From: Cephalotus follicularis
Lineage: Eukaryota; Streptophyta; Magnoliopsida; Oxalidales; Cephalotaceae
Assembly (NCBI GenBank): GCA_001972305.1
Contig: BDDD01001656.1
Coordinates: 82,864-146,863 of the forward strand
Direction of reading: 5' to 3'
Length of the DNA stretch: 64,000 nt
Part shown: piece by piece, positions 6,550 through 54,200 of the stretch
Position numbering within the stretch: position 1 is the stretch's first letter
Layout: each line of letters starts with the position of its first letter
The notes under the pieces: generated by a model
What the model saw: the letters and a program-made list of their open reading frames with translations, nothing else
What the model was told of the DNA's origin: nothing
Database searches by the model: none
Program-made: the position numbers and the translations under genes

Positions 6550-9262
6550 TGTAACACCCCCGGACGGCGGGAGTCGTCACAGGACAATATACATACATAA
6601 CCCATCATAACATATCTGAACATAACATTATTTATTAGCCAAAAACAGCCAAAAACGTGGCAGTCTTACCTTAACACTAAAACTTAACAATTTAACATAT
6701 TAAGTAACTGCGGAAAAACTCAAAACATAATCCAGTTCCAAAATTAAAACATAAAAACATAATTATCAGTGTTTTATGACCACTAGACATAACATAGGGA
6801 TCACACTCCTAGTGATCCTAACACATAAGGTGGTCATCACTCTTTCACACTTTCCCCTGCTGCTCCTCAAAACCTGCCGCATGGAAAACAAAAACGCGGC
6901 TGAGCAAACCTCAGTACGGATAAGGGAAATAAAATAGTAAACGATAATTTAAAAACAGTAATAATTCAATAAACTTCATAATGAAAATCTTAAACAGTTA
7001 AAATAGTTTAATCATATTCAAATACAAAATTCATATCCTTCGAAACATTTATGAAACAATTCAAATCGTCATTTCATCATTCACAGAATCATACTGAGCC
7101 ACATACATATCACATAACATAAATTTGGCAAGGGAGGCGCTAATTCCACATGCCCACTAGAATTGAAGTGTACGGCACTACACAAATCAATTCTCACATA
7201 ACACATATCCGATCATACCTCGGATCACATATCTGATCACATCTCAGATCACATAAACTAGAATCTATTCATACGCCTCTATCATACATAGCGGATCCAT
7301 AAATCCACCTCATGGGATTTATTCATAACACTCAGAGACGCCGTAGACTAATCACACCGCTACGGAAGTGTCGCGTCCCCATGCCAGGCCCACGACATGC
7401 CTATGGTACGCCCCATAGGTGGGTACAATACTCAGTATTCAATTCAAAAATATTGATTTATCAAAATCAATTTAAAATCTCATAAAATATGCTTTCACAA
7501 AACATATCGGAAGACCGCTCACAACGGTATCATAACATACTTTTCATAACATATCGTATCATTTCATATCATATGTATAAAGTCAGAATCATTTAAAATG
7601 TCAAACCAACTTTGTTTTCGAAACATGTCAAAACATAATCAATTTCATAATCGAAGAAGCATAGTAAAACTGTTTTCAGTTTGAAATATCAGATAGCCAA
7701 GGAATAGAAAATCCATACCTTATGCGTTTACAATGCACTTACGGATAGATGATTCCACAAACTTCACTTGAGGCACAACAATCTAAAGACACCAAAGCCA
7801 TACGTATAAGAGTCTAAAACACACCAGAAACGTTAAACAGACTCTTAACAGTGTTTGGAAAAGACTCGGATCGATTCGAGGAACAAACGAAGCAAAACAG
7901 TTGAAAACAGTACATTTCTGGACAAAACAGTCGACTATTACAGAGCACCAGCCGACTGGGGAAACTTGGCAGTCGACTAATCACAAGGGCCAGTCGACTA
8001 CTCAAACCAGCATGCAGACAGTCGACTGGTTCATAGATCCAGTCGACTACTCAACCTAAGACAGTGAACTGTGTTCATATGGCAGTCGGCTGTTCATCCA
8101 ATCCAGCCGATTGTCCACAGGAACAGCCGAATGTTCTGGATGACAGAACAGTAGGTAACTGGACAATTCAATACAGAAACGAGTTCTAATGATTTCTACA
8201 TTAAACAAGAGACACATGTACATAATTATATGACATAGTATGACATTTTGGTGACATAGAAACACATAATCGACATAGAAATATCTGGACAGTGACTTAT
8301 CTTTAAGAGAAAGCAAGAAAACATGCATACATATATGTCCTGATTCTGCCCATTGCTAATTACAGATGTTATAAAACCAGCCGTGACAAGTTTTAGAGCA
8401 TATTACACATGTTAACAGACTGACTAACACTATGACTAAACATATAAACATAGGAATTGAAACCGAAGGACAATAAGAGCATAAAACTCAAATCATCAAA
8501 TTGCAGCAAAACCATTACAGAAAGGAACGAATTAACTGACCTGTAATGGTATAAAAAACACAGAAAATAGCAGAAGGAACACTAGCACACACTCACAATC
8601 GGCTGTGAACAAAACAGGGCCAAAGAAAAACCAAAACAAGGACATACTTAGCAAACCAAATGAATTTAACTCATAAGACCAACAAAAGGATTAAATTTAC
8701 CTCTTCAGAGTTGAGGAAACGATTATATAGCAGCTTACACAGACCCCACAAGGCAGAATTCGACAATGGCACTTGCAAGAAGGATGAAGGCATATAAAAA
8801 GACAAGGACACTCACAAAAGGAAAAGGGGACAAAAATTTGCTAAAAAGGGAAGAAGGGAGGATTTTCAAGGGATTTAGAAAAGGAAAAAGGAATTGAAAA
8901 TGAGTAGAATTAATGAGGGAGAGGGAGGGCTTCGGGAGAAAGGAGAAGGAAGAAAGGAAATAGGAAGAAAAAAGGAAAGAAAAATAAAAGGAAAAGAAAA
9001 TAAATAAAATAAAAGGATTGAAATAAAAGGATTTTTAAAATAAGAAAAATTGTTTTAATAAAATAAAATGTTGATAAAATAATAATAAACCCAACCCAAC
9101 ATAGCATAACATATCCAAAATTCGGACTGGTATCAATCAGCCCAAATCACATAGGCTCAAAACATAGGGCGATCGGAATTTAAAAATCAACAAAATTTAA
9201 AAGCCCGAAAACAAAAACATACAAATCCGTAAAACACATTTACGAACAGACAGGGTATTACA
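6550..9262 (-). repeat. 5' LTR of element A
   Basis: The ends are TGTAAC and ATTACA on the plus strand (TG...CA), giving 2713 bases. The inner edge sits beside the primer-binding site. The LTR holds a conserved block near 7262-7440 with a short hairpin, and an array of CAGTCGACTG-like palindromes near 7925-8135. It has no coding content that I accept. Confidence 0.9.
7925..8135. repeat. Array of CAGTCGACTG-like palindromes
   Basis: About nine copies of a 10-base near-palindrome (CAGTCGACTG and variants CAGCCGACTG, CAGTCGGCTG) are spaced about 15-30 bases apart inside the 5' LTR of element A. Spacers differ from each other. Confidence 0.85.
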
Positions 9263-10969
9263 TTCCAGCCTATGACAGGGTCAATACAATATCGATGAAC
9301 TACAACCATCGGAGAGCTACTATACCATTAGGGAGCTACAACCCTCTAGTAGTACCAATCGTCAATAATAAGAGTACTGCTCATCAGCATGTCAAACAAT
9401 AAATGATACGATCTACGAAATGGGTGGACAAAGTCGATAGCCTAACATGCCGATGTGGGTAAGAAGGTTTCTCTATAGGATTCATACAATACAACCAATC
9501 AATCTGTCAGTACAATACCAATAAGTGGTGATGTCTAATGGAGAAATGGGAATGTGCGTCCAACGTTCTAAACTTAGACTCACAACACTTATGACTCAAT
9601 CAATCAATCAATCAATAGCCAATAGACTGTGACAATCAATTAACGAGATAGGAAAGAACATATGTCCAGCCAAAGAAAGTCACTGGGTCGTTGCCTATGG
9701 TTCAAGCTATCACTTTATCAATTCAATCTTTAAAAACTATGGAAAACTGTGTTTCAAATGCTTGAATACCTCATGTGAGGCTCCGGTCAAGCAGAAATGT
9801 AGAAAGAAGTTGAAAACTAGCTTTAAAATCATCAATTTTCCAAAACAGGACGTTAGGCATCAACGCTATAGATATACAAGTCGACGCTTAACATTCGCTT
9901 TCAACAATAGGTTGATGAGCATCAACGCCCTTGGACGAAGGCGTCGACGCGCATCGCGTTTTAAAAAACTAGTAGGTTTAAGCGTGACGTAGGCGTCGAC
10001 GCGCATCACCTTCTATATACAAGTGGGTTTAGACGTTGATGTCCTTGAGTCAAGGTGTCGACGCATATACCAAAAACGTCAACACCGAGATGGCTGGTAT
10101 GATTTGCGTCGACGTTTTTTCTGGGAAAAGGAAATCCCAGATCGTAGGCGTCAACACAAAAGATACGCGTTGACACTAACGTCAGATAAAACAGTTCAAA
10201 AGCATCAAGGCGTCAACGCCAATTGGCTAGGCGTCGACTTCTGAGCTGGGGTAAAACCTGTTTTCAGTAGAAAAATAGCCGATCTCATGTCAAAATCCAT
10301 TTTAAAGTGATTCTTTGAAAACCAAGGGTTAAAATCAGTCTTTTAAGGTTAGTAAAACTTGTTACAACCTTCAATTTATAGTTTCAATCTCTCTATATCA
10401 GTAGGTCAAGGATTTAATTAAAAACCCTTATTCCACAATTCTATACAATAGAATCACTCAATCATTCAATTCAATCAATCCATCATGCTAGCAGTAGGCA
10501 ATTCAAGTAGAGAAATCCTACATATAATTGGAGTTTCAACAGTTGAGCTTCCAATCAAACAATCGCTAAAAATACCCCAAGAACTCGCTGCTTTCTTGCT
10601 CAAACGGCAAAGCTAGCTTGCAATTGTTATCTTGTTGATGGAGAAACTAGTCCAGGAGCTACCAGGGAGATGGAGCAAGGTTGCCTAGCTAGGGAGAGGA
10701 AGAGAAGGGTCTAGAGAGGAGAAGAAGAATGAGAAATGGGAGAATGAGAGAAAAGGGTTTGAGAGATGACTTATATAGTCAATTCAGCCAGTTCTCCGAA
10801 ACTCAACCCAAATATCCCGACTATACATGCATACGGTCCATATGATAAACAATAGGTATATGAATAACTCAATCCAATACAGTAAAATATAGTTCAATAC
10901 AATTCAACACAGTACAATACGGTACAATATATGCATGAACAGTACAAAAAGGGAATTCGGGTCGTTACA
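9263..10969 (-). repeat. Gypsy LTR fragment L (minus)
   Basis: The right edge at 10969 reads TGTAACGACCCG on the minus strand, a usual start of a plant gypsy LTR. The left edge is the insertion point of element A, so the rest of this LTR should lie left of the window. It contains a (TCAA)n run near 9594-9616 and a GCGTCGACGC-type array at 9840-10240. No internal element sequence follows on the right; a copia gag begins at once. Confidence 0.65.
9840..10240. repeat. Array of GCGTCGACGC-like palindromes in LTR L
   Basis: About a dozen copies of GCGTCGACGC and decayed forms (GCATCAACGC, GCGTCAACGC, GCGTTGACAC) occur at irregular spacing. An arginine-rich open frame across this stretch is a by-product of the array. 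Confidence 0.8.
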
Positions 10970-11249
10970 TCCTTTGTTTCAAAGAAGTTTTGATAAAGCT
11001 TGACATTATTCATTTCCTCATATCCTAAGCTGGCTTTATCGAAAAATGCATATTAGCATCCCTAAAAGGTTTTCTAATTTTTCACTACTATTGGAAAACT
11101 TTGAGAAAGTTTTCTTTAAAGAATCTATTTCAATTTTAAGATTTTCCTTCTCTTTTTCTAAGAAATGCATTTCATTTTCCAAAAAAATCCATTTTAATTT
11201 CTTTAGAATTATCTTTCTTAGATAGAGCGATTGATTTTAATTCATCATT

Positions 11250-14227: not shown

Positions 14228-14790
14228 TGTTAGAGATGAAGTCCTGCAAGCCAGTGCTGAGTTTGCATTTACTCTATCTTGTACTTAACGATATATATTC
14301 AATAGATATGTTTATATTTTATCATTGGCTATGAGTTCATTATTTTTAATACATGTTTATTTAATAATAAATGATTGTCCTGGAATAAAGTTAGAGAACC
14401 AAGTTCATGATGAGATCATGATGTGAGAGTTGGGAACTCGGCATACTTTATTTTGAATCTTCCTGGTTATAGGATTGACACTCAGGGCATGATCAATCTG
14501 AACAAACCAGCACGTATTGTCATATCGGTAAGCTGAAGGTGACTAATATCACACTCACTTGCATGGTCGATGCTATGACAACTACGTGGGTGCTCATTGA
14601 CCGATTAACAAGTTCACTAAAGGTGACTGAAAAATAGAATATATGTATGGAGTTTTACGTACATGTCAGACATAATTCTAGTTTTACAGCTGCGTAAGCG
14701 GTCCTTGGACATGAGCCGTCACTGGATGTCTTGTGCATAGGATGCTGTGTTTTGATGGTGCTTAAATGCATATTCAATGAAGTGTATACA
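14228..14790 (+). repeat. Copia B 3' LTR, first part
   Basis: The edge TGTTAG lies right after the polypurine tract. The LTR is interrupted at 14790 by element C and resumes at 23832. The base run ATACA next to C is the target duplication. Confidence 0.8.
14786..14790. other. Target site duplication of element C (left copy)
   Basis: ATACA immediately precedes the TG of the C 5' LTR, and the same five bases follow the C 3' LTR at 23827-23831. Five bases is the usual gypsy target duplication length. Confidence 0.9.
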
Positions 14791-14954
14791 TGTAACGGCC
14801 GGTATTTTTTGTTTTGTAATATTTCGTCCTAAGATGTAATCTTATGTTGAATTAATGAAAATGTTGGAGATTTAGACCTCACTAATGTTACCAAACCCTA
14901 ATTATTGCTTGGGAGAAAGGAATGTGTGTGTTTAAACCAAAACGGTGCAGTTTT

Positions 14955-15115
14955 GGGAAAATGCGTTGATGTCTTTGGAAAGACGTCGACGCCTATGGGA
15001 GCAAAGGCGTACGTGAATGCATGGACATACCCGTCGATGTAGGGTGAAGACATCGACACCTCGTTATGAAAGGGAAAAGACATTGACGTCTAAGGAAAGA
15101 CATCGACGCCTTTTT
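14955..15115. repeat. GTCGAC/ATCGAT array in C 5' LTR (a)
   Basis: Units of the type AGACGTCGACGCC and ACATCGACACC are spaced 25-35 bases apart. The 3' LTR has the matching array at 22390-22550, and several of the mismatches between the LTRs fall in these units. Confidence 0.8.
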
Positions 15116-15849
15116 AAAGAACATCTGTCACGTTAAACACTGACAGAACAACATGCAATGGGAAATTTTTGATGCATCATCCAGGCATCTGGACATGCAC
15201 AATGCGATGTGTTGATCATGCTGGTGTGTTGCCAGGCATGCTCAAAACGTGCCCCTCACCTGGTGCATGCAAGAGGATATACCATCTTCATCTGCAACAT
15301 GTAGAAGGAAAAAGGGAAAAAGAACCAAAACCAGAGGAGGGTGAGCACGTGAGGGTGTGGTTATCTGTGAAGCAAGAGAGAAGGGGAGGGTTTCTGCCAT
15401 AATAAAACACCTCTTCCTTCCTCTCTCTCTGCTAAAAACAGTGAGAAAGGGAAATAGTGAGTGGGAGAAAGAGGGAGCCACCATTGTTGAGCTTGATTGG
15501 AGCTAGAGACTTGGAGCTCGTGAATTGCAGTTGCTGAGAGGATCTTGGAGCTGTTATGGCCAGAACCTTGGAACTTAAAGGGGTGGACTTTCCAGTTCCT
15601 AACTTAGAACAATAAGGTAGGGGAAAGTGATAATCTTATACATGCATTTTGGGTTTTAAGTTAGTGAATATCATGATGAATTGCATGATTATTGACTGAA
15701 TTGTGATTCTGGACTTGTTGTGATAACCACTGTGATGTACGGAGTAAACATGCATGTGCAAATTACATGAGTATTTGAACTAGATAATGTAATGGATGAT
15801 TTTGATAATGGCATGTTGTGTTAAAACTATGGAGAAAACGTTCTGGGTT

Positions 15850-16275
15850 GGATAAACGTCGACGTCTACCTGAAGACGTCGATGTCTTCGTGTACGTATG
15901 AAAAAGACATCGATGTTTGAGTAAAAGCAGCGACGCCTTTTCTGGGTATTCATAGAACAGTAATGTTTACTGCAGATGGCGAATTGGCCACTAGAGGTTA
16001 CATGTTTGTTTACGGATTGATGTTCTGGTTACATATCCTAATAACCAGTAGCATTTCTTACGCCTTGCGAGGTTGGGTTTCGCTTATATGAGGATTTAGG
16101 GGCTGGATTCTTCCCTCCAGAATCCAGACTCGTGAACTGATATCTCCTGGTATCATAAAGACATCGATGTCTTTGGAAAGGCATCGACGTCTTTGGTTCA
16201 AAATTCCCTGGGAATAACTGTACGAGAGGCTGACGCCTTAGGGTAAAGACGTCGACGCCTTAGGGATAGACATCG
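15850..16275. repeat. GTCGAC/ATCGAT array in C 5' LTR (b)
   Basis: A second group of units such as AAACGTCGACGTC, GACATCGATGTC and GACGTCGACGCC. There is no counterpart in the shorter 3' LTR. Confidence 0.8.
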
Positions 16276-17503
16276 ACGCCTATCCCCATGTTTAATGGAA
16301 TTTTACTCGAATGGGACCCGCTAGATCCGAAACGATCCTAGGAACGATCCTAGATGCATTCTGAGCATATGTTTGTATTATTACTGTGAATTGCATTATG
16401 GTTGATTTCTAAAAAGTGTTAACCATTTTGAAAAGCTTGTATGACTATTATAATCATTTTGTACGAAAATGTATATTTGTCAACATATGAATATATATAT
16501 TTTTGAAATGACTGGGGAAAGTATTTTCCAAAGACATAGAAATGTTTTAGATTGGTTACACAATCAAATGTATTGTTTTAAGTTTTATAACTTATTACAA
16601 CCTGAAAATGGAGTAATATATTTTTCGTAAAATATATTTGATCAAGTAATTATATTTTATTGCTTGACTTGTACTGTACAATGCTTGTGCCTGTTGATTA
16701 TTAGCCACTGTGCTAATAACCTGTTGATTACTTAGCCACTGTGCTGGTAACCTGCTATTGGTTTAGCCGCCGTGCTAAACAACGTACGGTGGACTTGCTC
16801 CAAGCCGTTCACAAACGGGGAAGGGGTAAGAGTGCATGACGTTGGGGCCAGGAGGTGGCGACGGTTATGATGATTGGCTTGTCTGGTTCCTTTTGGAACA
16901 TATTTACTGCTTGTGTTGATATAGCTTTGTGAGGTTATACCTGTAGTGTGAGCATGCATATATTTTTATATGTATATACGGAGATAAAATTACTGCGAAA
17001 ATTACATGTCATACTGCATCATAATGCATTCATTCATGATACTCATTATCATATACCTCGAACTGTATTTATGAGTTATTCACTTAGTCGAGTGAGGACA
17101 AAGGCTAACCCCTACTGTAACAGATTGATGGAGTGGATTTAACATGGAGCATGCAAGGAGACTTAAAGAGAAGACTGAGTAGTTTCTCTTATTTCTTGTA
17201 CTGGGTTAATGAACATTGGTCATGTTATTTGGATTATTGTAACAAAGGTTATTTTGTTATCCTGTACTGTTTATCACGCTCCGTTTTTGGCGATCGACTA
17301 TGATGTTGGGTTTTGTATAAACTTGTTGGGCATCACGTAGTATGGGATGCGTGGTGTATATTTAAATTCAGCTTATTTCTGTTATTGCTTCCGCTACTGA
17401 AGGTTTTTGTTTATACGTTTTATCGCATGAGCTGAATTATGTTGTGTTGATTGCCTTACCACTTTAAATGTTGACCTCTTGGAAAAAACGGGGTGTGACA
17501 ACG

Positions 17504-17516
17504 TGGTATCAGAGCA
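17504..17516 (+). other. Primer-binding site of element C
   Basis: TGGTATCAGAGCA, three bases inside the 5' LTR edge, matches the complement of the initiator tRNA-Met 3' end. Confidence 0.92.
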
Positions 17517-22206: not shown

Positions 22207-22220
22207 GAAGGAGGGGTGGA
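22207..22220 (+). other. Polypurine tract of element C
   Basis: GAAGGAGGGGTGGA directly before the 3' LTR edge. K has a near-identical tract at 52872-52885. Confidence 0.9.
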
Positions 22221-23826
22221 TGTAACGCCCGGTATTTTTCATTTTGTAATATTTCGTCCTAAGATGTAATCTTATGTTGAATTAATGAAAATGTTGGAGA
22301 TTTAGACCTCACTAATGTTACCAAACCCTAATTATTGCTTGGGAGAAAGGAATGTGTGTGTTTAAACCAAAACGGTGCAGTTTTGGGAAAACGCGTCGAT
22401 GTCTTTGGAAAGACGTCGACGCCTATGGGAGCAAAGGCGTACATGAATCCATGGACATACCCGTCGATGTAGGGTGAAGACATCGACACCTCCTTATGAA
22501 AGGGAAAAGACATCGACGTCTAAGGAAAGACGTCGACACCTTTTTAAAGAACATCTGTCACGTTAAACACTGACAGAACAACATGCAATGGCCAATTTTT
22601 GAGGCATCATCCAGGCATCTTGACATGCACAATGCGACGTGTTGATCATGCCGATGTGTTTCCAGGCATGCTCAAAACGTACCCCTCAACTGGTGCATGC
22701 AAGAGGATATACCATCTTCATCTGCAACATGCAGAAGGAAAAAGGGAAAAAGAGCCAAAACCAGAGGAGGGTGAGCACGTAAGGGTGTGGTTATCTGTGA
22801 AGCAAGAGAGAAGGGGAGGGTTTCTGCCATAATAACTGGAGAAAGTATTTTCCAAAGACGGAGAAATGTTTTAGATTGGTTACACAGTCAAATGTATTGT
22901 TTTAAGTTTTATAACTTACTACAACCTGAAAATGGAGTAATATATTTTTCGTAAAATATATTTGATAAAGTAATTATATTTTATTGCTTGACTTGTACTG
23001 TACAATGCTTATGCCTGTTGATTATTAGCCGCTGTGCTAATAACCTGCTGATTACTTAGCCACTGTGCTAGTAACCTGCTGTTGGTTTAGCCGCCGTGCT
23101 AAACAACGTACGGTGGACTTGCTCCAAGCCGTTTGCAAACGGGGATGGGGTAAGAGTGCATGACGTTGGGGCTAGGAGGTGGCGACGGTTATGACGATTG
23201 GCTTGTCTGGTTCCTTTTGGAACATATTTACTGCTTGTGTTGATATAGCTTTGTGAGGTTATACATGTACTGTGAGCATGCATATATTTTTATATGTATA
23301 TACGGAGATAAAATTACTGCGAAACTTACATGTCATACTGCATCATAATGTATTCATTCATGATACTCATTATCATATACCTCAAACTGTATTTATGAGT
23401 TATTCACTTAGTTGAGTGAGGACAAAGGCTAACCCCTACTGTAACAGATTCATGGAGTGGATTTAACATGGAGCATGCAAGGAGACTTAAAGAGAAGACT
23501 GAGTAGTTTTTTTTTTATTTCTTGTACTGGGTTAATGAACATTGGTCATGTTATTTGGATTATTGTAACAAAGGTTATTTTGTTATCCTGTACTGTTTAT
23601 CACGCTCCGTTTTGTGCGTTCGACTATGATGTTGGGTTTTGTATAAACTTGTTGGGCATCACGTAGTATGGGATGCGTGGTGCATATTTAAATTCAGATT
23701 ATTTCTATTATTGCTTCCGCTACTGAAGGTTTTTGTTTATGATTTTTATTGCATGAGCTGAATGATGTTGTGTTGATTGCCTTACCGCTTTAAATGTTGA
23801 CCTCTTGGAAAAAACGGGGTGTGACA
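22221..23826 (+). repeat. Element C 3' LTR
   Basis: It starts TGTAACGCCCGG and ends GGGGTGTGACA, 1606 bases, and is shorter than the 5' LTR. Identity with the 5' LTR is about 96 percent over the first 612 bases by hand count. A GTCGAC array lies at 22390-22550. Confidence 0.9.
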
Positions 23827-23831
23827 ATACA
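23827..23831. other. Target site duplication of element C (right copy)
   Basis: ATACA, identical to 14786-14790. Confidence 0.9.
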
Positions 23832-25039: not shown

Positions 25040-25210
25040 GAGAGAGACTGAGTTGAGAGGGAAAGTGGGCAAAATCGAGCAAGGAAGGAGTTGTTGGGAT
25101 CGTGGAAGGGTATAGAACCTGAAGGAAAAAGCAAAATAAGGATTCAAGCAGTCGATCATCTTTTTCTTCGTTCTCAACAGTGAAATAAAACACTCTTGCA
25201 ATATACAAGA
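25040..25210. other. Unassigned stretch
   Basis: Purine-rich sequence between the end of copia B and a run of 13 G (25211-25223). I see no coding or terminal-repeat signal. It may be leader sequence of the N2 remnant. Confidence 0.35.
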
Positions 25211-28698: not shown

Positions 28699-31454
28699 AA
28701 TGTGCTTGTTCGTATGTGTGTTTTACGAGCTTTTTATATGTTTGTTTTCGGGCCTTTAAATATTTGTTGTTATATGAAGTCCATTTGCCCGGTTTTGGGC
28801 CTATGTGTTTAGGGCTGACTGATACCAGCCTGAACCTTGGGTATGTTGGTATGTGAATGCTTGGGTTTACGTTATGTCAATTCTTGATAAAAATAACTAT
28901 TTTAAAACAATTTTATCCCTTTTTATAATTCAATTCTCTTTTTATTTTATTTTAAAATCCCTTATTTTCTAATTTTTATTTTATTTCCTTTTCTTCCCTC
29001 CCTTTCCTTATCTCACCCGAATTCCTCTCTTCCTCAAACTTTATCTCACCGAAAATCTCTCCCTCTCTTCAACTCTTCACACGTTTTCTTCATTTCCTTC
29101 CTTATCTAGCCCAATTTTCTCTCCCTTTTCCCGTTTAAGAGTGGTTTTTGGTTCATTGTGATATGTCATTCTCGTTTCTTTTGGCTATTCCCTGCCGAAT
29201 TCTGCAAAGTTAGGATTTGTGTTGATTCTTGTGAGGTTGCTTCATCATACATTCAGGTTTGTGCTAGTATTTCAATCCTTAATTGTCCTGTTTTAGTTAT
29301 AATATCCTTTGACAGGCTTTGAGGTTATATGTTCTTTTTCTTCCCTTTTGTTTTCTGTTGATCAGTTGTTTAAGTTTGGAAAATCGGTGTGTTAGCACAA
29401 TTATTGTGTGTCACCATTATAGGTCAGTTAATTCGTTTCTTACTGTGATGGTTTATGCTACATTGTTATGAATCCGATTGTTATGTTCCTATGGCTAATT
29501 GGGTTTGCTGTTTTGATTCCTGTCCTTGCATAGTGGTCATGGCTGTCAACATGTTTTAGGCATCACATACATGTTTCATGCTGGTTTAGATAACTGATAA
29601 TGGGAATGGACCTTTAAAATTGGATTATACATACGTGTATGCATGTATTCAGAAAATCTCTTTTCCTTGAGTTTAGCCACTGGTCTCATAAGATATGTAA
29701 ATTCTGTGTTTTCGCACTGTCTAAATGCCATATAATGTCCTATGTATATGTTCGTGTGTCACTGGTATAGGGTTATACATGTTTGGACAGTTTTTGCATT
29801 GAAAAATGTCAAGTTTTGCTGTTCTGTCATCCAAAACAGTTGGTTGTTCTAGTGGACAGTCGGGTGGTTTGGTTGTGTAGTCGGCTACCTTATGAAAACA
29901 GTAGACTGCCTTGCTTCACACAGTCCGTTGGACCTCTGTCACAGTCGACTGCCTGCAGTCTAGTTTGAGTAGTCGGCTGGCCCTGATTATTCATCAACTG
30001 GTGCTCTGTAATAGTCGGTTGTTTTGCCCAAAAAATGCCTGTTTTCAACTGTTTTGATCCGTTTGTTCGTCGAATCGATTTGGGTCTGTTCTAAACACTG
30101 TAATGAATCTATTTTATGTTTCTTATAATTCTCAGACCCTTATATGCATAGTTTTGTGTCTTTTAGATTGTTGTCCTTCAAGGAGAGTTTGAATTAACAA
30201 TCTTTTCGTAAGCCTTTTCTGTGAGCGTATAAGGTACGGATATTCTGTTCTTTGATACTCTCTTCGATTTTATCGAGACAAAATCAATTTTGCATTTATG
30301 ATGTTCTTTTCGTTTTAAGAACTTGGTTATGAAATTGATATGTTCCAAAAATAAAATCGGTTTCGACAATTTGCGAAATTGAATGTTCTCGACTGTATTC
30401 TTATGCTATGATACGTTATGATTTGATTATTTTGTTTATAGGAAATAAATGAGTTGATACTCTAAATATGAAATGTACCGTTTAATAACGATTTTCGAAT
30501 ATGTTTTGGAAAGCATATTTTATGTGTTTCTAAGTTGATTTCGATAAATCAATGTTTTGGTAATGATTAAATACTGAGTATTTGTACCCACCTATAGGGC
30601 GTACCATAGGCATGTCGTAGGCCTGGCACGGGGACATGACACTACCGTAGCGGTGTGATTAGTCTACGGCGTCTCTGTATGTTATGAATAAATCCCATGA
30701 GGTGGATTTATGGATCCGCTATGTATGATAGAGGCGTATGAATCGATTCTAGTATATGGCATATGTGATAAGATATGCAATGTGTGATATGATATGTTAT
30801 GATAATTGACTTGTGTAGTGCTGTACACTTAAATTCTAATGGGCTTGTGGAATTAGCTCATCCATTGCCATATATGTTTCTGATATATGATATGTTATGT
30901 GACTCAGTATGGTTATGAAATTATGTATTTGAAACGTTCCGTATATGTTTCGAAAGATATGAATTGGGTTTTATGAAGTTCGGAAATGAACGTCTAAATG
31001 ATTTACTGCTTAAGATTTATGTTATGAGTTTTATTGAAATCTTATTGCTTTTAAATTACCGTTTAATGTTTTATATTCTTTATCTGTACTGAGGTTTGCT
31101 CAGCCGCATTTTTGTTTCCATGTGGCAGGTTATCAGGAGCAGTGGGGGATGTGTGAATGAGAGTTGGCCACCTTTATATCATGGATCCCTAGGAGTGTGA
31201 TCCCTATGTGTTTTCAGTTAGAGTGGTCATGAACAATAAGATACTTTTGGTTTATGTTTTTAATAATTGACCCTTGGAACATATGTTTTAAGTTTCTGAA
31301 TATGTTCCAGTAAGTTTTTCAGTATGTTATGTTTTGACCGCCACGTTTTGGCTAATAAAGTTATGCCTATGTTATGTTAAGTTAATCTATGTTTTGTTAA
31401 GTTGTGATCTGTATTATGACCTATGACGACTCCCGCCGTCCAGGGGTGTTACAT
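28699..31454 (+). repeat. Solo-like LTR of the element A family
   Basis: It resembles the element A LTRs in reverse orientation and ends with CCCGCCGTCCAGGGGTGTTACA at 31454. No internal region or second LTR adjoins it, so it is a solo LTR or a remnant. A decayed palindrome array lies at 29845-30025 and a strongly conserved block at 30570-30760. It splits copia D, whose integrase resumes at 31455. Confidence 0.8.
29845..30025. repeat. Decayed CAGTCGACTG-type array
   Basis: Units such as ACAGTCGGGTGG, GTAGTCGGCTAC, CAGTCGACTGCC and ATAGTCGGTTGT are spaced about 20-30 bases apart, at the place equivalent to 7925-8135 of the element A LTR. After the last unit comes TTTTGCCCA, also seen after the array in LTR J. 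Confidence 0.75.
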
Positions 31455-32420: not shown

Positions 32421-33147
32421 TGTAACGCCCCAAACCCCAAGGGTCAACCCCAAAGGTTTGACACGCTACCAACAGTATCATTCAATAAATTGTAAAAAAT
32501 TAAAGACATTAAATCAATATAATAATGCAAGCAAAAATTCAATAAACAATAATCTTTGTGGATAAAACCCAGTTTATACAGATTTATTTAAATGGTAGCT
32601 CTGCCACAGACTGGCAGGTCATAATACAATCAATTCATCAAATTCCTAGGTCATCGAACTGCAACTGGAAGGAGGAGACTTGTCCCGGTTCAGTGTTCCG
32701 ACTGCTGCGAAGCTCCACCCGTACCTGACCCATTACATTATAATGCAATGGGTCAGCAACCACTAGTTGTGTAGGAACCCCTACCCATGCATATGTGGAG
32801 TGCAATGCAGCAGATATAAATATGTATGCTACGAGAGATGCAGTAAGAATAGTACAGTCCATGCAATACATTCAGTATAACAGTACATTTCTTTAACCTT
32901 CATTCATTCCATAACATTCCATAACAGTCATTATAAATCTTTCAACGGCATTCCCTACTTAAGGAGGAGCGGTAACGCCTTCCAGGTGTTGAAGGCAGAG
33001 AAGCTGGTAGGAATAAACATTACAATTTAGGCAGACCAGTTCCTCAGATCCTCGGATTTAGGTAGAGTAATATATGCGCTCTAGGAGTCATAGGCAGAGG
33101 AAAGGAACATAAACTTTCATTATGCAGTAATAATCATTCAGTCAGTA

Positions 33148-33325
33148 TGGCTCATCTCGGTCGGTGATCCATTGGCTCATCTCGATAGGTGATCCATTGG
33201 GCTATGTCGGTGACCCACCTGGTTCAGCTCAATTTGGTGACCCATTAGGTCATCTCGGAAATAGCCTTACTGGCTCATCTCAGTCCGTGATCCCCGAAGG
33301 GCTCATCTCGCTAGTGATCCAGTCC
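33148..33325. repeat. Short tandem units GGCTCATCTCGGT-GGTGATCC
   Basis: Degenerate units of about 25-29 bases, built on CTCATCTCGGTCGGTGATCCATTGG and GGTGACCCACCTGGTTCAG. The other H LTR (58725-58930) has one extra 29-base unit. Confidence 0.75.
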
Positions 33326-33835
33326 ATTTCATTACGCTATACTTATTATAACATTTATATTTCTGTACAGTAACACTACTTTAACATTTCACTATGAGGC
33401 CTGCCCTTATTAAAATACTACATAATACACTACATTCATTATAATTTTACTACTAAAACCAGTCATGTTATTATGCATGCATGTGATGCATGTAGGGTAG
33501 TAATTGGGGGACACGTTCTCATGTGTTGGACGCAAGCTTGGCAGAGGACCACGCCTTGCTGGCATGGTTAGGGCGCATGCATGCATAACATTTACAATGC
33601 ACTACCCAAATGGTGCAGCATGGCGGCTACACTGATACATCCTCGGACGCATATACGCTTGGGTACAGTCCAGTGGAAACCTCAGCGTTGTGCCATGCTC
33701 GGCATATGGATGCATGCCTGAGATGGCCTGATGGGTGGATGCCAGGACCCATGCTCAGTACATGGAAGTGGAGAGCTCGGTTCCTTGCGTCCTTGGCGCC
33801 TTGGCTCCTTGGCACCTCAGACGTATGCAGTGGAC

Positions 33836-33990
33836 AGTAGGGATCTCGGCACTGGCATCCTCGGCACCCTGGCCATGCATAGGACACATGCAGGGGACAG
33901 TGAGGAGCTTGGCATTGGCATCCTCGGCTCCCTGGGCATGCATAGGACACATGCAGGGGACAATGGGGAGCTCGGCACTGGTGATGTGTG
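33836..33990. repeat. GC-rich tandem units of about 60 bases in H 3' LTR
   Basis: Two and a half units of the type CTCGGCACTGGCATCCTCGG ... GGCATGCATAGGACACATGC. The same zone in the other LTR is at 59430-59600. Overlapping open frames on both strands across 33.6-34.2 kb are by-products of this GC-rich repeat. Confidence 0.75.
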
Positions 33991-34908
33991 CTCAGACGCA
34001 TGGCATGGCAGCCATAGTTTTCACCTCGGGACACATGGAGAGGTCACCTCGGCATAGGGCATCCTCGGCTCATGGATGGTGCAACACATCCTCGGCGCAT
34101 GGACACTTGCTTGCAGTGGAGGATGCACTGCTCGGTGTAGGCTGAAGCGCATGGCATGCTCCTCGGCACCTCGGGCTTTTGCAGTGGAGTGCTCATCACC
34201 TCGCCATGCTCGGACGCATGGCGTAGGAGAGCTCAAGCTTCATATCCGCACCTAGGCTTATGACGGCAATGCGTATGGCGTACTGGTCAGTACTTTAAGG
34301 GACACGTGGAAATAACATACCAAGGAACAATGCTATACATTCTACCGTTACATTTATTATAAACTAACATTAATATAACATTTCCATCATTAAAAAGGTG
34401 CTGGTAGGAGATCCTACCTTAATTTGGCGAGATTGCAGCGCTTCTCCTTTGCTCGGCACAACTCCTCAATTGCTCCTTTGCCTTCACCACTTCTTCTTTC
34501 ATGGCTCCTTTGAGATTGAGAGTGGGAGATTTAAAGACAAGAGGAGGGAGACAAGAATATTCTGGACAATGACATATCTTTGTCTCCTTCCCTCAAAAAC
34601 ATCGAAATCGTCCCCACACTCCCTTCTCACCTTTTTATAGCCAGTAAATGGAATTCTCTAGAATTCCCAAGACACTTGGATGGCATTTTTACGTAATAAT
34701 GTCAATTGGGCATTAGTGGAGTCGGCCCAACATTCTCCTTTTCTTCCCCAAAGAATTAGGTCCAAGGTCTTATTTCCCTCTTGAAACCATTTTTATCCAG
34801 GGCCATAAAATTCCTTTCAAGGCCCAAAAGCCATTTCTTAATTAATTCAATTAAAGTCCAATAGCAATACATTTTCGGCTCGAAATATCGTTCCTTGAAA
34901 TACTGTAC

Positions 34909-36760: not shown

Positions 36761-37933
36761 TCAGTCCTCCATGCGAGTGCCCGCATCATCTCCTCCGAGA
36801 TCACCCTCCATATCATCAGTTGCCGCATCGTCTGGGGGATCATCGTCGTGGCTGGAGGATGGAGATATGAGGCCATCATACACAATAAGGCCTGCATCAG
36901 CAAATCTCTTGAGAAATCTCTTTTGCCGCCTCTTCATGCACTCAATGTTCTTCTGCATGCCTTTGATTGCGTCGAACATCTCATCCGTCCTATTTCTTGG
37001 AGGATGGTCATCTGGAATCTGTTGAGGCGGTGGTTCGATCTGTAGAGGTACATTCTCCGCTTCTTCACCAGCCTCGGCTTCACCCTCCTCTTGCTCTATT
37101 CTGTTTGAGTCCTCGTCCCTTGGAATCCAAGCACCTGTCCTCTTGTGCTTTTTGAACCCCATTCTTCCGAGGGTTCCTTTTCCCAGCTTGTCAGAACTTA
37201 GAAGGTCGTTGTGCACTTCCTCAGTGAAGTCGACACCACAACACTCGAGAATCCTAGTTATGATATTGCTATACCCTAACCTAGCATTCTCCCGGTCATG
37301 TATCGAATGCATATATTTGACAATAAGAAAGGGAACATTGATTGGCCAGCTAGTGATAAAATGGTACATAGTGAAGGCTTCCATGTGGGTTACCTCATCG
37401 AACCCACCGGCCTTAGGAAGAATGTGCGTGCATATTGCACGGTGCAGAAATCGATAATGCAAAGGTAAGTTCCTAGTGTACATTCGCTGAATCGGATCAG
37501 CGTTTTCACCGAATAAGGTTCGTACACAGTCAAGTCTATCAAAATCATCGCCAGTAACCCAAGTGCGTTGATTCCAGCCTCTAACACCTAGGTTCAAAAT
37601 TTTCAGGATGGTATGAAGTTCGTCTAAATCAAGATCAATGGATTTTCCTTTGACAGTTGTGCTTATGCCAACCGAAGAGTACGAAGAGCTAGTACTAATT
37701 TTTGCATAGAACTCCTTCATTAGGTCTGGATAACTAGCTTTGTGCAAAGAGAAAAGTGGTTCTAGACCCTGAAATCTAATCCATTCTACTATGGGAAATC
37801 CTTCCCTAGAACAAAACTCAAAGTCAAGAACTTTACCTACTAGGATTTTTCTGTTAAAGTAGGCCTCTGGATATCTAGGGAGAGAGGGAGGCACCTCAAA
37901 CATTGTGAGTGTGTGTGTCCATGTTTTCCACAA
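36761..37933 (-). CDS. N3 extra ORF: PF20167-like 'putative plant transposon protein'
   Basis: A 390-codon frame is open throughout. Residues about 12-250 carry the pattern I associate with PF20167: YFNRKILVGKVLDFEF, GFPIVEWIRFQGLEPLF, YPDLMKEFYAKI, TTVKGKSIDLDLDELHTIL, and a histidine- and tryptophan-bearing middle. A Glu/Pro-rich linker follows (about 280-315), then a basic helix with KNIECMKRRQKRFLKRFA (about 330-350) and an acidic Asp-rich end. The first likely start may be the Met at residue 12 (MFEVPP), because the first codons overlap the last gag knuckle in another frame. Its function is unknown. I see no transposase, protease or nuclease signature. Its place after gag suggests it travels as part of the SIRE-like element. 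The family call is from memory of the pattern. Confidence 0.7.
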   Translation of the reverse strand: MWKTWTHTLTMFEVPPSLPRYPEAYFNRKILVGKVLDFEFCSREGFPIVEWIRFQGLEPLFSLHKASYPDLMKEFYAKISTSSSYSSVGISTTVKGKSIDLDLDELHTILKILNLGVRGWNQRTWVTGDDFDRLDCVRTLFGENADPIQRMYTRNLPLHYRFLHRAICTHILPKAGGFDEVTHMEAFTMYHFITSWPINVPFLIVKYMHSIHDRENARLGYSNIITRILECCGVDFTEEVHNDLLSSDKLGKGTLGRMGFKKHKRTGAWIPRDEDSNRIEQEEGEAEAGEEAENVPLQIEPPPQQIPDDHPPRNRTDEMFDAIKGMQKNIECMKRRQKRFLKRFADAGLIVYDGLISPSSSHDDDPPDDAATDDMEGDLGGDDAGTRMED

Positions 37934-37939
37934 AAATTA

Positions 37940-39170: not shown

Positions 39171-40096
39171 GAATACAATTACGGGTGCTATTCGGTTACA
39201 CCTTGGTGATTGACCTCAATCACTTACAACTCACTTTGGGTTCACTCCCCAAATTTTCTAGGGTTCACTCCCCTATTACAATCAAAGTATAAATAGTTTG
39301 TGTTTGTAACTAAACCTCTCACAAGGTTGGATTTTACAATATAGGATTGCTCAAAACAGTGAGAACAAGAATTGGCTTAAGATGTAAAAATAAGACTTTT
39401 GATTGAGCTTTTTGATTTGAATGCCTTGAATGAGATTTCTTTGAATGATGTTTGCTTGTATGATTTGCTTGTGTTGTTCTCCCTTTATTCTTCAGAAACT
39501 TTCGTCTATATATAGCTTATTGCATCATAGATCCGTTGGGATTAGTTTAGGATAAATTCCTTAATGGAATGTCCACTGAAATCTGTCAGAAATTACTGCA
39601 GTCGATCAAAGCGTCGACGGACTCCTCTAAAGCGTCGACGGTCATGTGACCGTTGGGGCTCCCAAATTTGAAATCTCGGCTTAAAGCGCAGGCGTTCAAT
39701 TGCTGGTGTCGACCGCCAGATAAAGCGCTGACGCTTAGACGTGGGCGTCGACGCTTAGTCACATTTTAATTGCCATTTCTTCTCTGCCTGAGACGGCAGG
39801 CGCTTTGCACTAAGCGCATCCGCTTTGAGGCTCAAAGCGCAGACGCTTGAATTTGAGCGTCGACGCTTGGAGTGTTATTCCCAATTCTCCAAGTGCTTCA
39901 CCGGTAGACGCTTTGTTCTTGTCTCGACAGTCAGCTAAAGCGCAGACGCTTTAATGCTAGGCGTCGACGGTCTGGGCAGATTTCTGCATAATTCTTGCTC
40001 ATTTGTTTATCTTTTATCTTTCTTGCACATAAAGAAACTTTGTCAAATACAAATATGTTATCATCAAAACATAGGATTGAGACATAAATGTCAACA
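39171..40096 (-). repeat. N3 LTR
   Basis: The outer edge at 40096 reads TGTTGACATTTATGTC on the minus strand. It matches the N1 LTR, including TGATTGACCTCAATCACTTAC (39209-39230 here, 12670-12690 in N1), and carries a dense GTCGAC array at 39600-39975. The inner side passes directly into gag sequence. Confidence 0.72.
39600..39975. repeat. Dense GTCGAC array in N3 LTR
   Basis: About a dozen units such as AAGCGTCGACGG, GGCGTCGACGCTTAG, GAGCGTCGACGCTTGG and AAAGCGCAGACGCTT. Many form palindromes of 10-14 bases. Confidence 0.85.
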
Positions 40097-40124: not shown

Positions 40125-40250
40125 ACAGTCGGCTATTCTCAAGAACAGTCGGCTATTTTGATTGAGCAGTCGACTGTTTCCTTTTAACATTCGACTGGAT
40201 AGATTGAGTAGTCGACTGCCACGAAGAACAGTCGACTGCTTTGCCCAGAA
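40125..40250. repeat. CAGTCGACTG array in LTR J (a)
   Basis: Six units: ACAGTCGGCTAT twice, GCAGTCGACTGT, ACATTCGACTGG, GTAGTCGACTGC and ACAGTCGACTGC, about 20-25 bases apart, then TTTGCCCAGAAAATG. Confidence 0.85.
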
Positions 40251-41139: not shown

Positions 41140-41205
41140 CCAGTCGACTGTCACACCACGCATCAGCCAGTCGACTGTTCCCCTATGGCAGTCGGCTGTC
41201 GATGG
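41140..41205. repeat. CAGTCGACTG array in LTR J (b)
   Basis: Three further units (CCAGTCGACTGT twice and GCAGTCGGCTGT) spaced 20-30 bases apart, near the LTR start. Confidence 0.8.
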
Positions 41206-41347: not shown

Positions 41348-42343
41348 TAAGGCAAGTCATTAGGCAGCCATGCCTACGCTCTCAAGGATCTCAAAGGGTC
41401 CAATAAAGCGAGGGGATAACTTCCCTTTCTTGCCGAACCTCATAATACCCTTGAAGGGTGAGACTTTAAGAAAAACATGTTCTCCCACTGCAAATTCCAG
41501 ATCTCTTCTGCGGTGATCCGCATAACTTTTCTGTCTGCTTTGAGCCGTTAACAGTCTTTCTCTGATCAGCTTAGCCTTTTCTGTGGTTTCTTGCACTAAC
41601 TCTGGTCCCAGAAGACTTGCTTCTCCAACTTCGAACCAACAAATTGGGGTTCTACACTTCTGTCCGTAAAGAGCTTCCAAAGGTGCCATTCCAATACTAG
41701 CGTGGAAGCTATTATTATATGAGAATTCCACTAAGGGCAGATATACATCCCAACTACCACCCCAATCCAATAAGTATGCTCTAAGCATGTCTTCCAAAGT
41801 TTGGATGGTCCGCTCATATTGCCCATCAGTATGCGGGTGAAAAGTGGTACTGAAGAAGAGTTGGGTACCAAGAGCTGCTTGCAGTTTCTTCCAAAACCGT
41901 GATGTAAAACGAGGGTCTCTGTCAGAAACCACACTGACTGGTACACCATGGAGTTTTGCAATCTCAGCAATGTACAAGGTTGCCAACTTTTTGAGGGAGT
42001 ACGTGGTCTTGATTGGCAAGAAGTGAGTCGATTTATAAAAGCGGTCAACGATCACCCATATAGTATCACAGTTGGTTCTTATTATTGGCAGACCGGTCAC
42101 AAAATCCATGGTGATGTGTTCCCATTTCCATTGTGCCACAGGTAAAGGCTGGAGTAAACCTGTCGGCCTTTGATGTTTTGCTTTAATTGGCTGACATGTC
42201 AGACATGAGGTGGCATACTCAGCAATCTCTCTTTTCATACCATTCCACCAAAAGCTAAGCTTCAGATCTCGATACATCTTGGTACTCCCCGGATGCACCA
42301 AAAATCTGAAGCGGTGAGCTTGAGACAACAACTCATCCTTCAA
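41348..42343 (-). pseudogene. H: integrase main part
   Basis: The minus strand encodes a nearly complete integrase as one open stretch: zinc-binding start (SCLTCQPIKAKHQ), VDRFYKSTHFLP, VSDRDPRFTSRFW, FHPHTDGQYERT, EFSYNNSFHASIGMAP and the GKKGKLSPRFIGPFEIL end. It is cut at 41347 by LTR J, and its last part lies at 34910-35207. Confidence 0.88.
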
Positions 42344-42359
42344 TTCCTTTTATCAGGAA

Positions 42360-45999: not shown

Positions 46000-46985
46000 T
46001 TGATGATGACGAGCCTGTCAGCTACGAGGAGGCAGTGAAGAGCACTGAATCCGGGGCATGGCTAAAGGCCATGAAATCCGAGATGGACTGCATGGATGCA
46101 AACCAAGTACGGAACTTGGTCGATGCACCTAAGGGTATTAACCCTATTGGTTACAAATGGATCTTCAAGAGGAAGATTGGCACTGATGGTAAGATAGAGA
46201 CTTACAAAGTGCGATTGGTCGCGAAAGGGTACAGGCAAAGACACGGAGTCAACTATACCTAAACTTTCTCACCAGTCGCTATGCTTAAGTCCATATGGAT
46301 ATTGTTTGTTATTGCCGCTCATTATGACTATGAGATATGGAAAATGGATGTCAAGACAACATCCTTGAACGACTTTCTTGAAGAGGACATTTACATGTCC
46401 CAACCAGAGAGGTTTACATCCATGGAGAATCAACAGAGAGTCTGTAACCTCCAAAGGTCGATCTAAGGCCTTAAGCAAGCGTCCCGTAGCTGGAACATCC
46501 ATTTTGACGAGACTGTTAAGACTTTCGATTTCATCAAAAACGTGGATGAGCCTTGTGTTTTCCAGAAATCGGATGACGCGAATATCACGTTCTTGGTACT
46601 ATACGTGGACGACATACTAATCATATGGAATGATGTGGGTATGTTACAGTCCGTCAAAGTATGGTTATCAAAGAACTTCTCCATGAAGGATTTGGGAGAG
46701 GCATCCTATGTATTAGGTATAAAGATCTACAAAGATAGATCTAATAGGTTGCTAGGGCTCTCCTAAAGCAAGTACATCAGCAAGGTGTTGAAACGGTATG
46801 GCCTTGAGAATTCCAAGCGGGGCCTTCTTCTGATTGGCTAGGGAATTCACCTCTCCAAGAGGATGTCTCCACAGACAAATGAGGAGAGGATTCGCATGAG
46901 TAGGCAGCCATATGCTACGGCAGTTGGCTCCATCATGTATGCCATGCTGTGTACTAGACCTGATGTCGCCTATGCCATGCTTTGT
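46000..46985 (+). pseudogene. G: copia reverse transcriptase
   Basis: RT motifs are YKWIFKRKIGTDGKIE, RLVAKGYRQRHGVNY, KMDVKTTSLN and the catalytic box LVLYVDDILI (near 46600), ending AVGSIMYAMLCTRPD. The sequence then meets the LTR of K; the RNase H is not present. It is broken in a few places. Confidence 0.85.
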
Positions 46986-48502
46986 ACTGGGTTGAAATGT
47001 CGTGAGGAAGAAGACGACATGTACGCAAGACCATCGACGCTCTGGAAAAAGAGTCGACGGGTTGGGCTATGAAATGCGATAGTTTTACTGAATGCGTGTT
47101 AAGATGTCGAGGCCTATGGGAGAAGACATCAACGCCGAAGGTACAGAAAGCGCTAACACTAAGGATCGAGCGTCGATGCTTAGAGGACATAAGCGTCGAT
47201 GCCCAAGGGAAAGACGTCGATGCTTTAAAGGCTGTTTGGACCAAATTCGCTTAAACAACGTAGTGCAATCTAGATTTTATTTTAGATGCATTAGAACATT
47301 TGTTTGCATTACATATGTACTGCTTTTTATTGTTTATTGACTGCGTTTAGTTTCTAAAGTTGTTTCAATATTTTACAAATGCTTATGTGATTTCGAAAAT
47401 CATTATTTAAGTACGAAAATATATATTGGACAAATACATATTTTTGAACAAACTGGGGAATGAATCCCATTACTGTTACTGTTTAAAGTATTTTCTATGA
47501 GATGGAAATGCATGATTTCAAGTAATTTTAAATGACTTGAAGTAAGCTGATATATTTTTGATCAAGTAATTATTTTATAAAATTGCTTGAACCGTACTGT
47601 TACTGTGACTATTTTCGGTGTTTGCACTGTGACTATGCTGTGTTTGGGCTGTGTTTGTGTTTGCACCGTCCTAGTTGCGTGGCAGAGATTGCCAGCGATG
47701 ACTAGTGGCAGGGTTGACCTATGAGCAAGGAGTTAGCTGGGTGACTCACTGTACTGTACTGTGGCCTACTTCCTGCCGTTCGGAGGCGGGGCAGAAGTTA
47801 GGAGTGCGATGTGGGGCCAGGAGTTGGAGACGTTGTTCGTACTTAATGACTGCTTGTTAGTCCCTTTGTGGACATACTGTATACTGTTTACTGGTCCTAT
47901 GCGGACATTACTGTTGTTGTGTTGCGTGGCCCTGGCCGGGTTACTACTATACTATTGATATACATATATATATTTACATATGTATATAATGTTATTTTTC
48001 TGTATTGCATCACTATACATACCTTACATGACATGCATTTAATGTCGATCCCAAATTGCACTTATGCTCAGCCGAGTGAGGAGAAAGGCTAACCCCCTAC
48101 TTTACAGATTGATTCAGTGGACCGGCTTTGGGAACCAGCATGGATGAAGAACAAGTTTTAATAATGTTTTACTTGGGGTTATGTCCTTTTGGGTTTTGTT
48201 AAGCTGGTTATGTATTGAATGGGTGTTGTGTACCGTACTTCCAGTTTGCTTGTTTTCTGATGTTGCTGGATAATGTAATTTGATCACGCTCTGTCTTGTG
48301 GGCTTTTAACTATGAAAGACATGTATTTGGTAACGTGTATCATGGGATGCACGTTACGTGCTTTTCAGCTTATGGGTTTCAATGCTTCCACAACTGATAT
48401 CATGTTTGAAAATTTTAATTTTTTTGGTATTTTACATAAGCTGAATCTTATATGTTAATTGCCTTCACCATATCTCCAGTTTATGGGAATCGGGGTGTGA
48501 CA
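46986..48502 (+). repeat. Element K 5' LTR (partial)
   Basis: It matches the second part of the 3' LTR (about 53950-55463) and ends GGGGTGTGACA. A CpG-decayed GTCGAC array lies at 47030-47225. Confidence 0.85.
47030..47225. repeat. GTCGAC array in K 5' LTR
   Basis: Units such as ACCATCGACGCTC, AAGCGTCGATGCC and AGACGTCGATGC. The 3' LTR counterpart (54000-54200) keeps more intact GTCGAC cores. Confidence 0.8.
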
Positions 48503-48505
48503 GCA

Positions 48506-48517
48506 TGGTATTAGAGA
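48506..48517 (+). other. Primer-binding site of element K
   Basis: TGGTATTAGAGA, three bases inside the LTR, is a one-base variant of the initiator tRNA-Met complement. Confidence 0.8.
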
Positions 48518-52850: not shown

Positions 52851-52871
52851 ATTTCGAGGATGAAATTCCTT

Positions 52872-52885
52872 GAAGGAGGGGTCGA
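52872..52885 (+). other. Polypurine tract of element K
   Basis: GAAGGAGGGGTCGA directly before the 3' LTR edge TGTAACGCCC. Confidence 0.85.
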
Positions 52886-53059
52886 TGTAACGCCCGGGAT
52901 TTTCACACATTGTAATAATTTAATTTTCGATGTGACCTTATCATGGAATTAATGAGAATAATTAAATTCCCAACTTTGATGATTTTTTTCTCTTTTTGAT
53001 GGTTGAAATTTGAAAAAGGAATTTCAAAGGAGTTCTTTGATTTAAGTATTGAAATTTCA

Positions 53060-53220
53060 GGCTAAAGCGTCGACACCTTTTGGAAAGCGTCAACGCCTAC
53101 GCAGCAAAAATGTGCACGTAAACCATGCACATGCACGTCGACGTGGAAGAAATGCGTCGACGTCATTACAAGAAATGACCAAAGCGTCAATGCCAGCATG
53201 CAATCTGTTGACGCTTAGAG
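53060..53220. repeat. GTCGAC array in K 3' LTR (a)
   Basis: Units such as AAGCGTCGACACC, GCACGTCGACGTGG, ATGCGTCGACGTC and CTGTTGACGCTT, with 15-40 base spacing. Confidence 0.8.
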
Positions 53221-53999
53221 CCGAATATCAGACACGTTTCTCTGCTGACAGAATAACGTGCAAGGGGAGCTTTTCATGCCACTTTTCAGGCACCTTCACA
53301 TGCGTTTTATGACGTGTTGATCATGCATCGAGATTCCCTAAAGTACCAGAAACAAAAAGAGGTAGATAGGAGTGGGGTTCTGGGCATGCATGAACTAGGA
53401 GAAGGAAGAAATGGACACCTGTTGCACCAGGTTACACAAGAAAGAGAGAGGAAGGAATCAATGAATGAATGCAGAGAAAAACAAAAGGGAACTGCATAAA
53501 AATCGGCTCCTCTCATCTCTCTCGTCGGTTACAGTGAAAGAGAAAACCAGGGAGTGAAGAGAAACTCTGAGAGAGAGATAAAACAAGAAAAGGTTTGGAG
53601 AGAGAGAGAGAGCTCAAAACTCCATTCTTGAGCAAGGGAGAGCTTCGAACTCGGATAACAACTACTGGAGCGAACTTGGGAGCATTCAAGCCTAACTGGG
53701 GAGCCCAAAGGGACTGATTAAGTACTAGAACTTTCAGCTTCTGACTTGAAGTCAGAGGTAGGGGAAGCCATAATTGTATTTTGGGTTCAATATTTGGTGT
53801 TTGATCAGTGATGTATATGGATAGATATCATGGTCTGATTAACTGTTTTTAATCACTGAATTGATGCCATGTTTTACTGGATGTGTAATCTGTCATTGCA
53901 TGTTTGTTTCCTGGTTTTATTGCATGTCATTTTGCATGTATCTGGGCTGACTTTGTACTAGGTTGAGGTGTCGAGAGGAAGAATACGACCTGTGCATAA

Positions 54000-54200
54000 G
54001 ACCGTCGACACTTTGGCAAAAGCGCCGATGCTTTCGGCTGTGAAATATGATAGTTTTACTGAACGCGTGTTAAGACGTCGACGCCTATGGGAGAAGACAT
54101 CGACGCCTAAGGTACAGAAAGCACTGACGCTAAGGATCGAGCATCGACGCATAGAGGACATAAGCGTCGACGCCCACGGGAAAGACATTGACGCTTTAAA
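54000..54200. repeat. GTCGAC array in K 3' LTR (b)
   Basis: Units such as ACCGTCGACACTT, AGACGTCGACGCC, AGCATCGACGCAT and AAGCGTCGACGCC. It is the counterpart of 47030-47225. Confidence 0.82.

Follow-up and report, generated by a model that had tools for sequence, protein, structure and literature searches.

Clustered transcription-factor sites are familiar from the long terminal repeats (LTRs) of plant retrotransposons, the heat-element clusters of ONSEN and the LTR repeats of Tnt1 among them, and the subterminal repeats of CACTA elements are rows of short protein-binding motifs separated by divergent spacers. The arrays reported here consist of short palindromes centred on GTCGAC and lie in LTRs of Gypsy and Copia-type elements, in a 64,000-nucleotide stretch of the Cephalotus follicularis genome (contig BDDD01001656.1, positions 82,864 to 146,863, forward strand; hereafter the window). 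They are unlike those of ONSEN and Tnt1, which are single families with other motifs, and unlike those of CACTA elements, which are DNA transposons whose arrays are bound by their own protein. The LTR of tomato Rider, in the accessible sections of PMC6762207, likewise carries stress-type transcription-factor sites in U3, a CBF site included, but Rider is one family with mixed single sites, whereas the present arrays are phased, built of one site type and found across families. VANDALs, as the accessible sections of PMC5735166 and PMC10398659 describe them, belong to the Mutator-type DNA elements and have a VANC of their own, whereas here LTR retrotransposons of two superfamilies carry palindromic units at about 21 bp. 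As far as those sections go, factor sites in LTRs (PMC6762207) and motif arrays in transposons (PMC5735166) are kinds of feature already known. Phased palindrome arrays common to Gypsy and Copia-type LTRs were not found described in a literature search that left most subscription journals and all preprints outside its range; among the titles listed for CAGTCGACTG none dealt with LTRs, and no factor was taken from those listed for proteins that read GTCGAC. The best explanation of the arrays, to which we would give about an even chance from the sequence, is that they are phased DNA-binding-site arrays used as LTR enhancers.

The arrays are real and lie far above chance, which the enrichment of their core confirms. 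The sequence-only reading that drew attention to these palindromes had suggested comparing the density of GTCGAC with shuffled sequence of the same dinucleotide content, and the density proved to be well above that expectation: the window holds 45 copies, against a mean of 5.8 and a maximum of 13 in 200 dinucleotide shuffles, and GTCGAC is the most enriched of the 64 palindromic hexamers. Pairs of GTCGAC 10-60 bases apart number 15 in the window (shuffle mean 0.015, maximum 1, again over 200 dinucleotide shuffles). Across the genome (1.58 Gb) there are 263,653 GTCGAC pairs with 10-40 bases between them, compared to 4,345 for a reversed-pattern control. A genome sample of 19 loci of 10 kb, some of them N-rich, and a 93-base stub (190 kb; loci are cited below by L numbers) contained 85 copies where 14.8 were expected, rank 1 among all hexamers. 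Two loci of this sample (the C1 loci) were picked because the genome listing of GTCGAC pairs named them, and the sample also includes a satellite locus, L026; the reduced sample of 16 loci without these three gave 56 copies against 11.5.

When near-cognates are counted and at least one GTCGAC is required, there are 23 arrays of at least four units in the window and the sample (19 loci) taken together. Units belong to class A, CAG(T/C)CGACTG, or to class G, (A/G)CGTCGACG(C/T), many copies of which are lengthened to AAAGAC(G/A)TCGACG(C/T)CTTT, or at 39 kb to sequences such as AAGCGTCGACGCTT. Mixing of the two classes is rare; the one array holding both, at 7490-7674 of L009, is internal and stands right before the leader of an open reading frame (ORF) with sub-threshold likeness to Transposase_32. 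The array size of 6-12 units given by the sequence-only reading does not hold for exact GTCGAC, which forms clusters of 1-6 in the window; with near-cognates, the six window arrays of at least four units contain 4-9, and those of the sample up to 13.

Core-to-core distances peak at 20-21 bases in both classes, with additional class A peaks at 41-42 and 62-63. To measure the pitch, each class A unit was set against the bases lying one pitch further along, regardless of whether these formed a unit (137 oriented matches, with exact palindromes entering once for each strand), and core identity was 0.53 at an offset of 21, compared to 0.25 at 20 and 0.15 at 22. Identity in the middle of the spacers between neighbours is 0.20-0.32, which is background; in class A, cores and pitch have thus outlasted the likeness of the spacers. 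The claim that the spacers are unrelated therefore stands for class A and fails for class G, in which the spacers are largely the arms of a 16-18 bp palindrome. As 21 bp corresponds to two turns of B-DNA, neighbouring sites would lie on the same face of the DNA.

The core variants are also stranded. Element sense was set by the primer-binding site (PBS), by ORFs or by alignment to an oriented relative (for the 7- and 30-kb LTRs of the window, by alignment alone), and variants of both classes were counted over 21 segments, which are whole LTRs or arrays and in some cases both LTRs of one element; the array in sample locus L012 and the arrays of L010 were excluded because the sense of their elements is unsettled. 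On the sense strand, class A shows GCCGAC 30 times, GTCGGC once and ACCGAC once, and the 30 versus 1 was unchanged by the recount over 21 segments. In the genome, AGTCGGCT pairs lie in the same orientation 37,901 and 37,611 times on the two strands, compared to 5,004 convergent and 1,150 divergent pairs, so that 92.5% of paired GTCGGC variants share an orientation. For CATCGACG, with the same and convergent orientations searched, there are 25,869 + 25,908 pairs in the same orientation and 7,402 convergent ones.

Several arrays are placed next to promoters. The array in the LTR of L009 ends 44 bases before TATAAA, the last core of the array near 39.5 kb in the window lies 86 bases before the putative TATA box TATATATA, and further TATA contexts directly after arrays are present among the genome matches listed. 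Before TATAAA, AGCCGACT occurs 2,985 times in the genome (control 283) and AGTCGGCT 839 times (control 194). The repeated site upstream of TATA that characterizes an enhancer is found in L009, at 39.5 kb and in these other contexts.

Arrays of both classes occur in Gypsy and in Copia-type elements, which bears out the proposal that the two superfamilies share them, where Copia-type refers to the gag family alone, no Copia reverse transcriptase having been seen in these elements. Class A is carried by the Gypsy LTRs of L021 (Gypsy-type gag, protease and reverse transcriptase) and of the window at 40 kb (integrase), with the LTRs of L016 and of the window at 7 and 30 kb placed in the same Gypsy group by alignment, and by the Copia-type LTRs of L009 and L024 (Copia gag). 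Class G is carried by the Gypsy LTRs at 14-23 kb and 47-55 kb of the window and in L013 and L019, and at 39.6-40.0 kb it lies upstream of a region, at 38-39 kb, that can be aligned with Copia-type gag. The LTRs had been described as unrelated, and this is true of Copia-type versus Gypsy class A LTRs, in which similarity by alignment is confined to the arrays. It is not true within Gypsy: the 7-kb and 30-kb LTRs align with each other over 2.7 kb and partially with the 40-kb family, and most class G Gypsy LTRs can be aligned with one another, L019 with the LTR at 9.3-11.0 kb. Within L009, a relative of the 39-kb LTR at about 1.7-3.2 kb aligns at 80% with the 3' portion of that locus's class A LTR, which indicates that related Copia-type LTRs can bear different unit classes. 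Among the LTRs examined, arrays are all-or-none: array-bearing segments hold 4-13 cores, and no core was found in the LTR pairs of L017, L018 and L022 or in the one arm of L014 that was counted.

Module exchange between superfamilies, one of the origins suggested by the sequence-only reading, is plausible, in that the shared strings allow it and do not prove it. A 19-base string of core plus spacer common to the Gypsy 7-kb LTR and Copia-type L024 was matched in 0 of 300 shuffles, and an 18-mer common to the 54-kb and 39-kb arrays is longer than any obtained in 300 shuffles; class G strings shared between superfamilies are, however, partly palindrome arms, and other cross-superfamily pairs sharing at least 14 bases are within chance (300 shuffles).

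We propose that the arrays act in cis to regulate the LTRs, as rows of palindromic sites spaced at roughly two helical turns, which a sequence-specific protein would read on double-stranded DNA and through which it would activate the LTR promoter. From the arrays, pitch, strandedness and placement that are observed, we infer both the binding of a protein and activation by it. A site acting at the level of DNA is favoured by the persistence of core, pitch and strand against drifting spacers and by the occurrence of arrays at several promoters. Of the functions offered by the sequence-only reading, the one with most support is that of sites bound by a palindrome-reading factor, given the exact 21-bp pitch of class A with its random mid-spacers, the stranded motif and the promoter-proximal placement in several families. 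Several families of both superfamilies may have gained rows by tandem amplification together with exchange or convergence, and would thereby answer to one factor or a few related ones; neighbouring sites facing the same way could permit cooperative binding. A further proposal, which we regard as somewhat unlikely, is a genome-wide trans-factor code shared by retrotransposons, in which one factor, of the host or of a subset of elements, reads arrays gained independently or by exchange, and unrelated elements are co-activated or jointly shielded from silencing. If one factor does read the arrays, a large share of the genome's retrotransposons would form one regulon with a simple DNA code, and the movement of regulatory modules between superfamilies would be visible in sequence. 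The arrays would then provide a handle on the signal by which most of a plant genome is mobilised, and could show whether regulatory parts are borrowed or the same solution is reached independently.

By likeness of motif, a C-repeat-type (CRT) AP2/ERF protein is the best lead for a reader of class A. This lead is suggested by the oriented class A core G(C/T)CGAC, which fits the C-repeat element of cereal CBF/DREB and ERF proteins, given for barley as (G/a)(C/t)CGAC in the accessible text of PMC3602543. Counted on one strand as a test of the CRT core, class A gives GCCGAC/GTCGGC at 30/1 and class G gives ATCGAC/GTCGAT at 32/14, which is weaker. As a common explanation, W-box or methyl-cytosine mimicry read by WRKY proteins was dropped, because GTTGAC is rare in class A (3 versus 48 GTCGAC); it is less rare in class G (10 versus 33).

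A number of observations weigh against enhancer arrays and against this lead. The C-repeat consensus, as the same text of PMC3602543 presents it, has neither the palindromic arms, the exact pitch nor the class G ATCGAC of the present arrays, and the canonical core of the dehydration-responsive element, ACCGAC, is nearly absent (1 in 21 oriented segments), although this would be compatible with CRT-only ERFs, which would not need ACCGAC; CRT-specific ERFs that do not bind it exist according to that text. Rider, with its CBF site in U3, shows no cold response in the accessible sections of PMC6762207. Class G is less regular than class A: its orientation is weaker, with ATCGAC 32 versus GTCGAT 14 over the 21 segments (20 versus 4 over 17 chosen segments without the 47-kb LTR and others), the 47-kb LTR runs opposite with 1 versus 4, and its phasing is less strict, identity being 0.26-0.37 at offsets 20-22 and 0.22-0.23 at 25 (35 matches). 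In some families the motif before TATA has the opposite orientation, so that the strand rule does not hold everywhere, and in the Gypsy LTR of L019 the TATAAA and a CT-rich leader come first and the array follows downstream, so that the upstream placement is not found there.

An alternative that needs no function is a 21-bp minisatellite, amplified by slippage and then spread among LTRs via recombination or template switching. Such an origin would account for the constant orientation within arrays, for some strings common to different families and for weak base preferences of the sense-strand spacers, as counted around cores that the search pattern had fixed. We nevertheless consider it unlikely: mid-spacers of class A neighbours are at background identity, yet cores and exact pitch persist, and in the oriented class A segments GTTGAC and GTCAAC together number 4 versus 48 GTCGAC, although the CpG would be expected to decay before other positions. 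The argument has less force for class G, the corresponding counts being 13 versus 33.

The main functional rival is a VANC-like factor. As in VANDALs, a protein of the element or the host would bind the arrays and strip DNA methylation from the element, a possibility that we regard as doubtful. The short motif tandem-amplified in non-coding regions that is typical of VANC targets is found here, and under such a mechanism the position of the array upstream or downstream of TATA would be immaterial. Between LTR pairs, core CpGs are kept at 39/46 compared to 105/186 for other CpGs (stratified p 0.003), but the difference shrinks when CpGs are matched for context, to 39/46 versus 36/51; a hypomethylated footprint at the cores, weakened by this matching and by two more LTR pairs, was kept as a weak candidate. 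Some array-bearing Copia-type elements also have a Transposase_32-like ORF, which would be a candidate factor only, and its predicted fold was unusable (mean predicted local distance difference test score, pLDDT, 39.5). ORFs of this family (PF20167) are located at 36761-37936 of the window, 7698-8882 of L009 and 923-1345 of L021, the matches in L009 and L021 being below the Pfam cut-off, and those of the window and L009 adjoin Copia-type gag. At least 150 Transposase_32 matches in the genome are above the Pfam cut-off (150 scored, all passing, of 13,073 first-look candidates).

RNA elements, in which the palindromes would pair within element transcripts, are quite improbable. The palindromic units are able to pair mutually, and the 12 arrays that were folded are more stable than shuffles, with z of -0.7 to -8.8 for the sense and -1.9 to -7.8 for the antisense strand. 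Sense-strand variation, however, does not preserve pairing: the changes T to C (30 versus 1) and G to A (32 versus 14) break it, G.U pairs would survive on the antisense strand alone, the better-folding strand in 11 of the 12 arrays, and the L009 and 39-kb arrays lie upstream of TATA and thus outside the 5' leader. The RNA stem-loops of the sequence-only reading are therefore disfavoured on the sense strand, where A.C mismatches arise from the common class A variant. G.U-tolerant stems in sense RNA had at first been suggested by the variants, and this was reversed once PBS, ORFs and alignment had fixed the orientation of the elements.

The proposal that the arrays are CpG-dense targets attracting DNA methylation and silencing is very improbable in spite of up to three CpGs per class G unit, as comparison of LTR pairs shows core CpGs to be retained no worse than other CpGs, their decay being no faster, and an element should not select for a target of its own silencing.

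Table 1. Arrays and associated features of the window (window coordinates)
Feature	Position	Strand	Context
Class A array, 7 units	7928-8092	+	LTR spanning about 6.7-9.3 kb; alignment to L016 indicates sense
Class G array, 9 units	9878-10240	-	LTR aligning with Gypsy LTR of L019
Class G array, 4 cores	14985-15107	+	Left LTR 14790-17501 of Gypsy element; PBS at 17504
Class G array, 5 units	22393-22539	+	Right LTR 22220-23827, same Gypsy element as 14790-17501
Decayed class A array, one exact GTCGAC and near-cognates	29880-30030	-	LTR at 28.7-31.2 kb; TTTGCCCA next on + strand
Transposase_32 (PF20167) ORF	36761-37936	-	Downstream of Copia-type gag
Putative TATA box TATATATA	39507-39514	-	86 bases sense-downstream of last core of array 39601-39968
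Class G array, 7 cores	39601-39968	-	Upstream of Copia-type gag region
Class A array, 6 units, pitch 20-21 bases	40126-40238	-	Gypsy family with relatives in L016 and L021
Short class A array, 4 cores	41143-41203	-	Just beyond end of integrase ORF 41360-42349
Decayed class G copy	Left LTR 46980-48502		Partner of right LTR 53951-55463
Class G array, 4 units	53067-53163	+	Stretch aligning with 22-kb LTR
Class G array, 5 units	54002-54173	+	Right LTR 53951-55463 of Gypsy element

Two class A arrays had been said to be followed by TTTGCCCA, and this was found to be correct: on the + strand of the window the string occurs only at 30023 and 40240, after the 30-kb and 40-kb class A arrays, and its complement occurs once more, at 25066. 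In the element at 14.8-23.8 kb, about 1.1 kb of the left LTR (15406-16506) is missing from its right partner, and extra class G cores are present within that stretch at 15858-16272. Tandem repeats of 63 bp are located at 33825-33981 and 59431-59593, inside stretches that are 88% alike (32422-34908 and 58010-60519). A run of 510 N occupies window positions 150-659. The 3 kb upstream of the window and the 149 bases at its start match positions 4026-7174 without a difference, which suggests an assembly overlap left unmerged at a scaffold gap. Other palindromes over-represented in the window are GCATGC (3.3x), GACGTC (2.8x) and ATGCAT (2.5x), and the arms of class G units may account for part of the GACGTC excess. 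The 10 kb sampled at L026 is nearly all satellite with a unit of about 163 bp.

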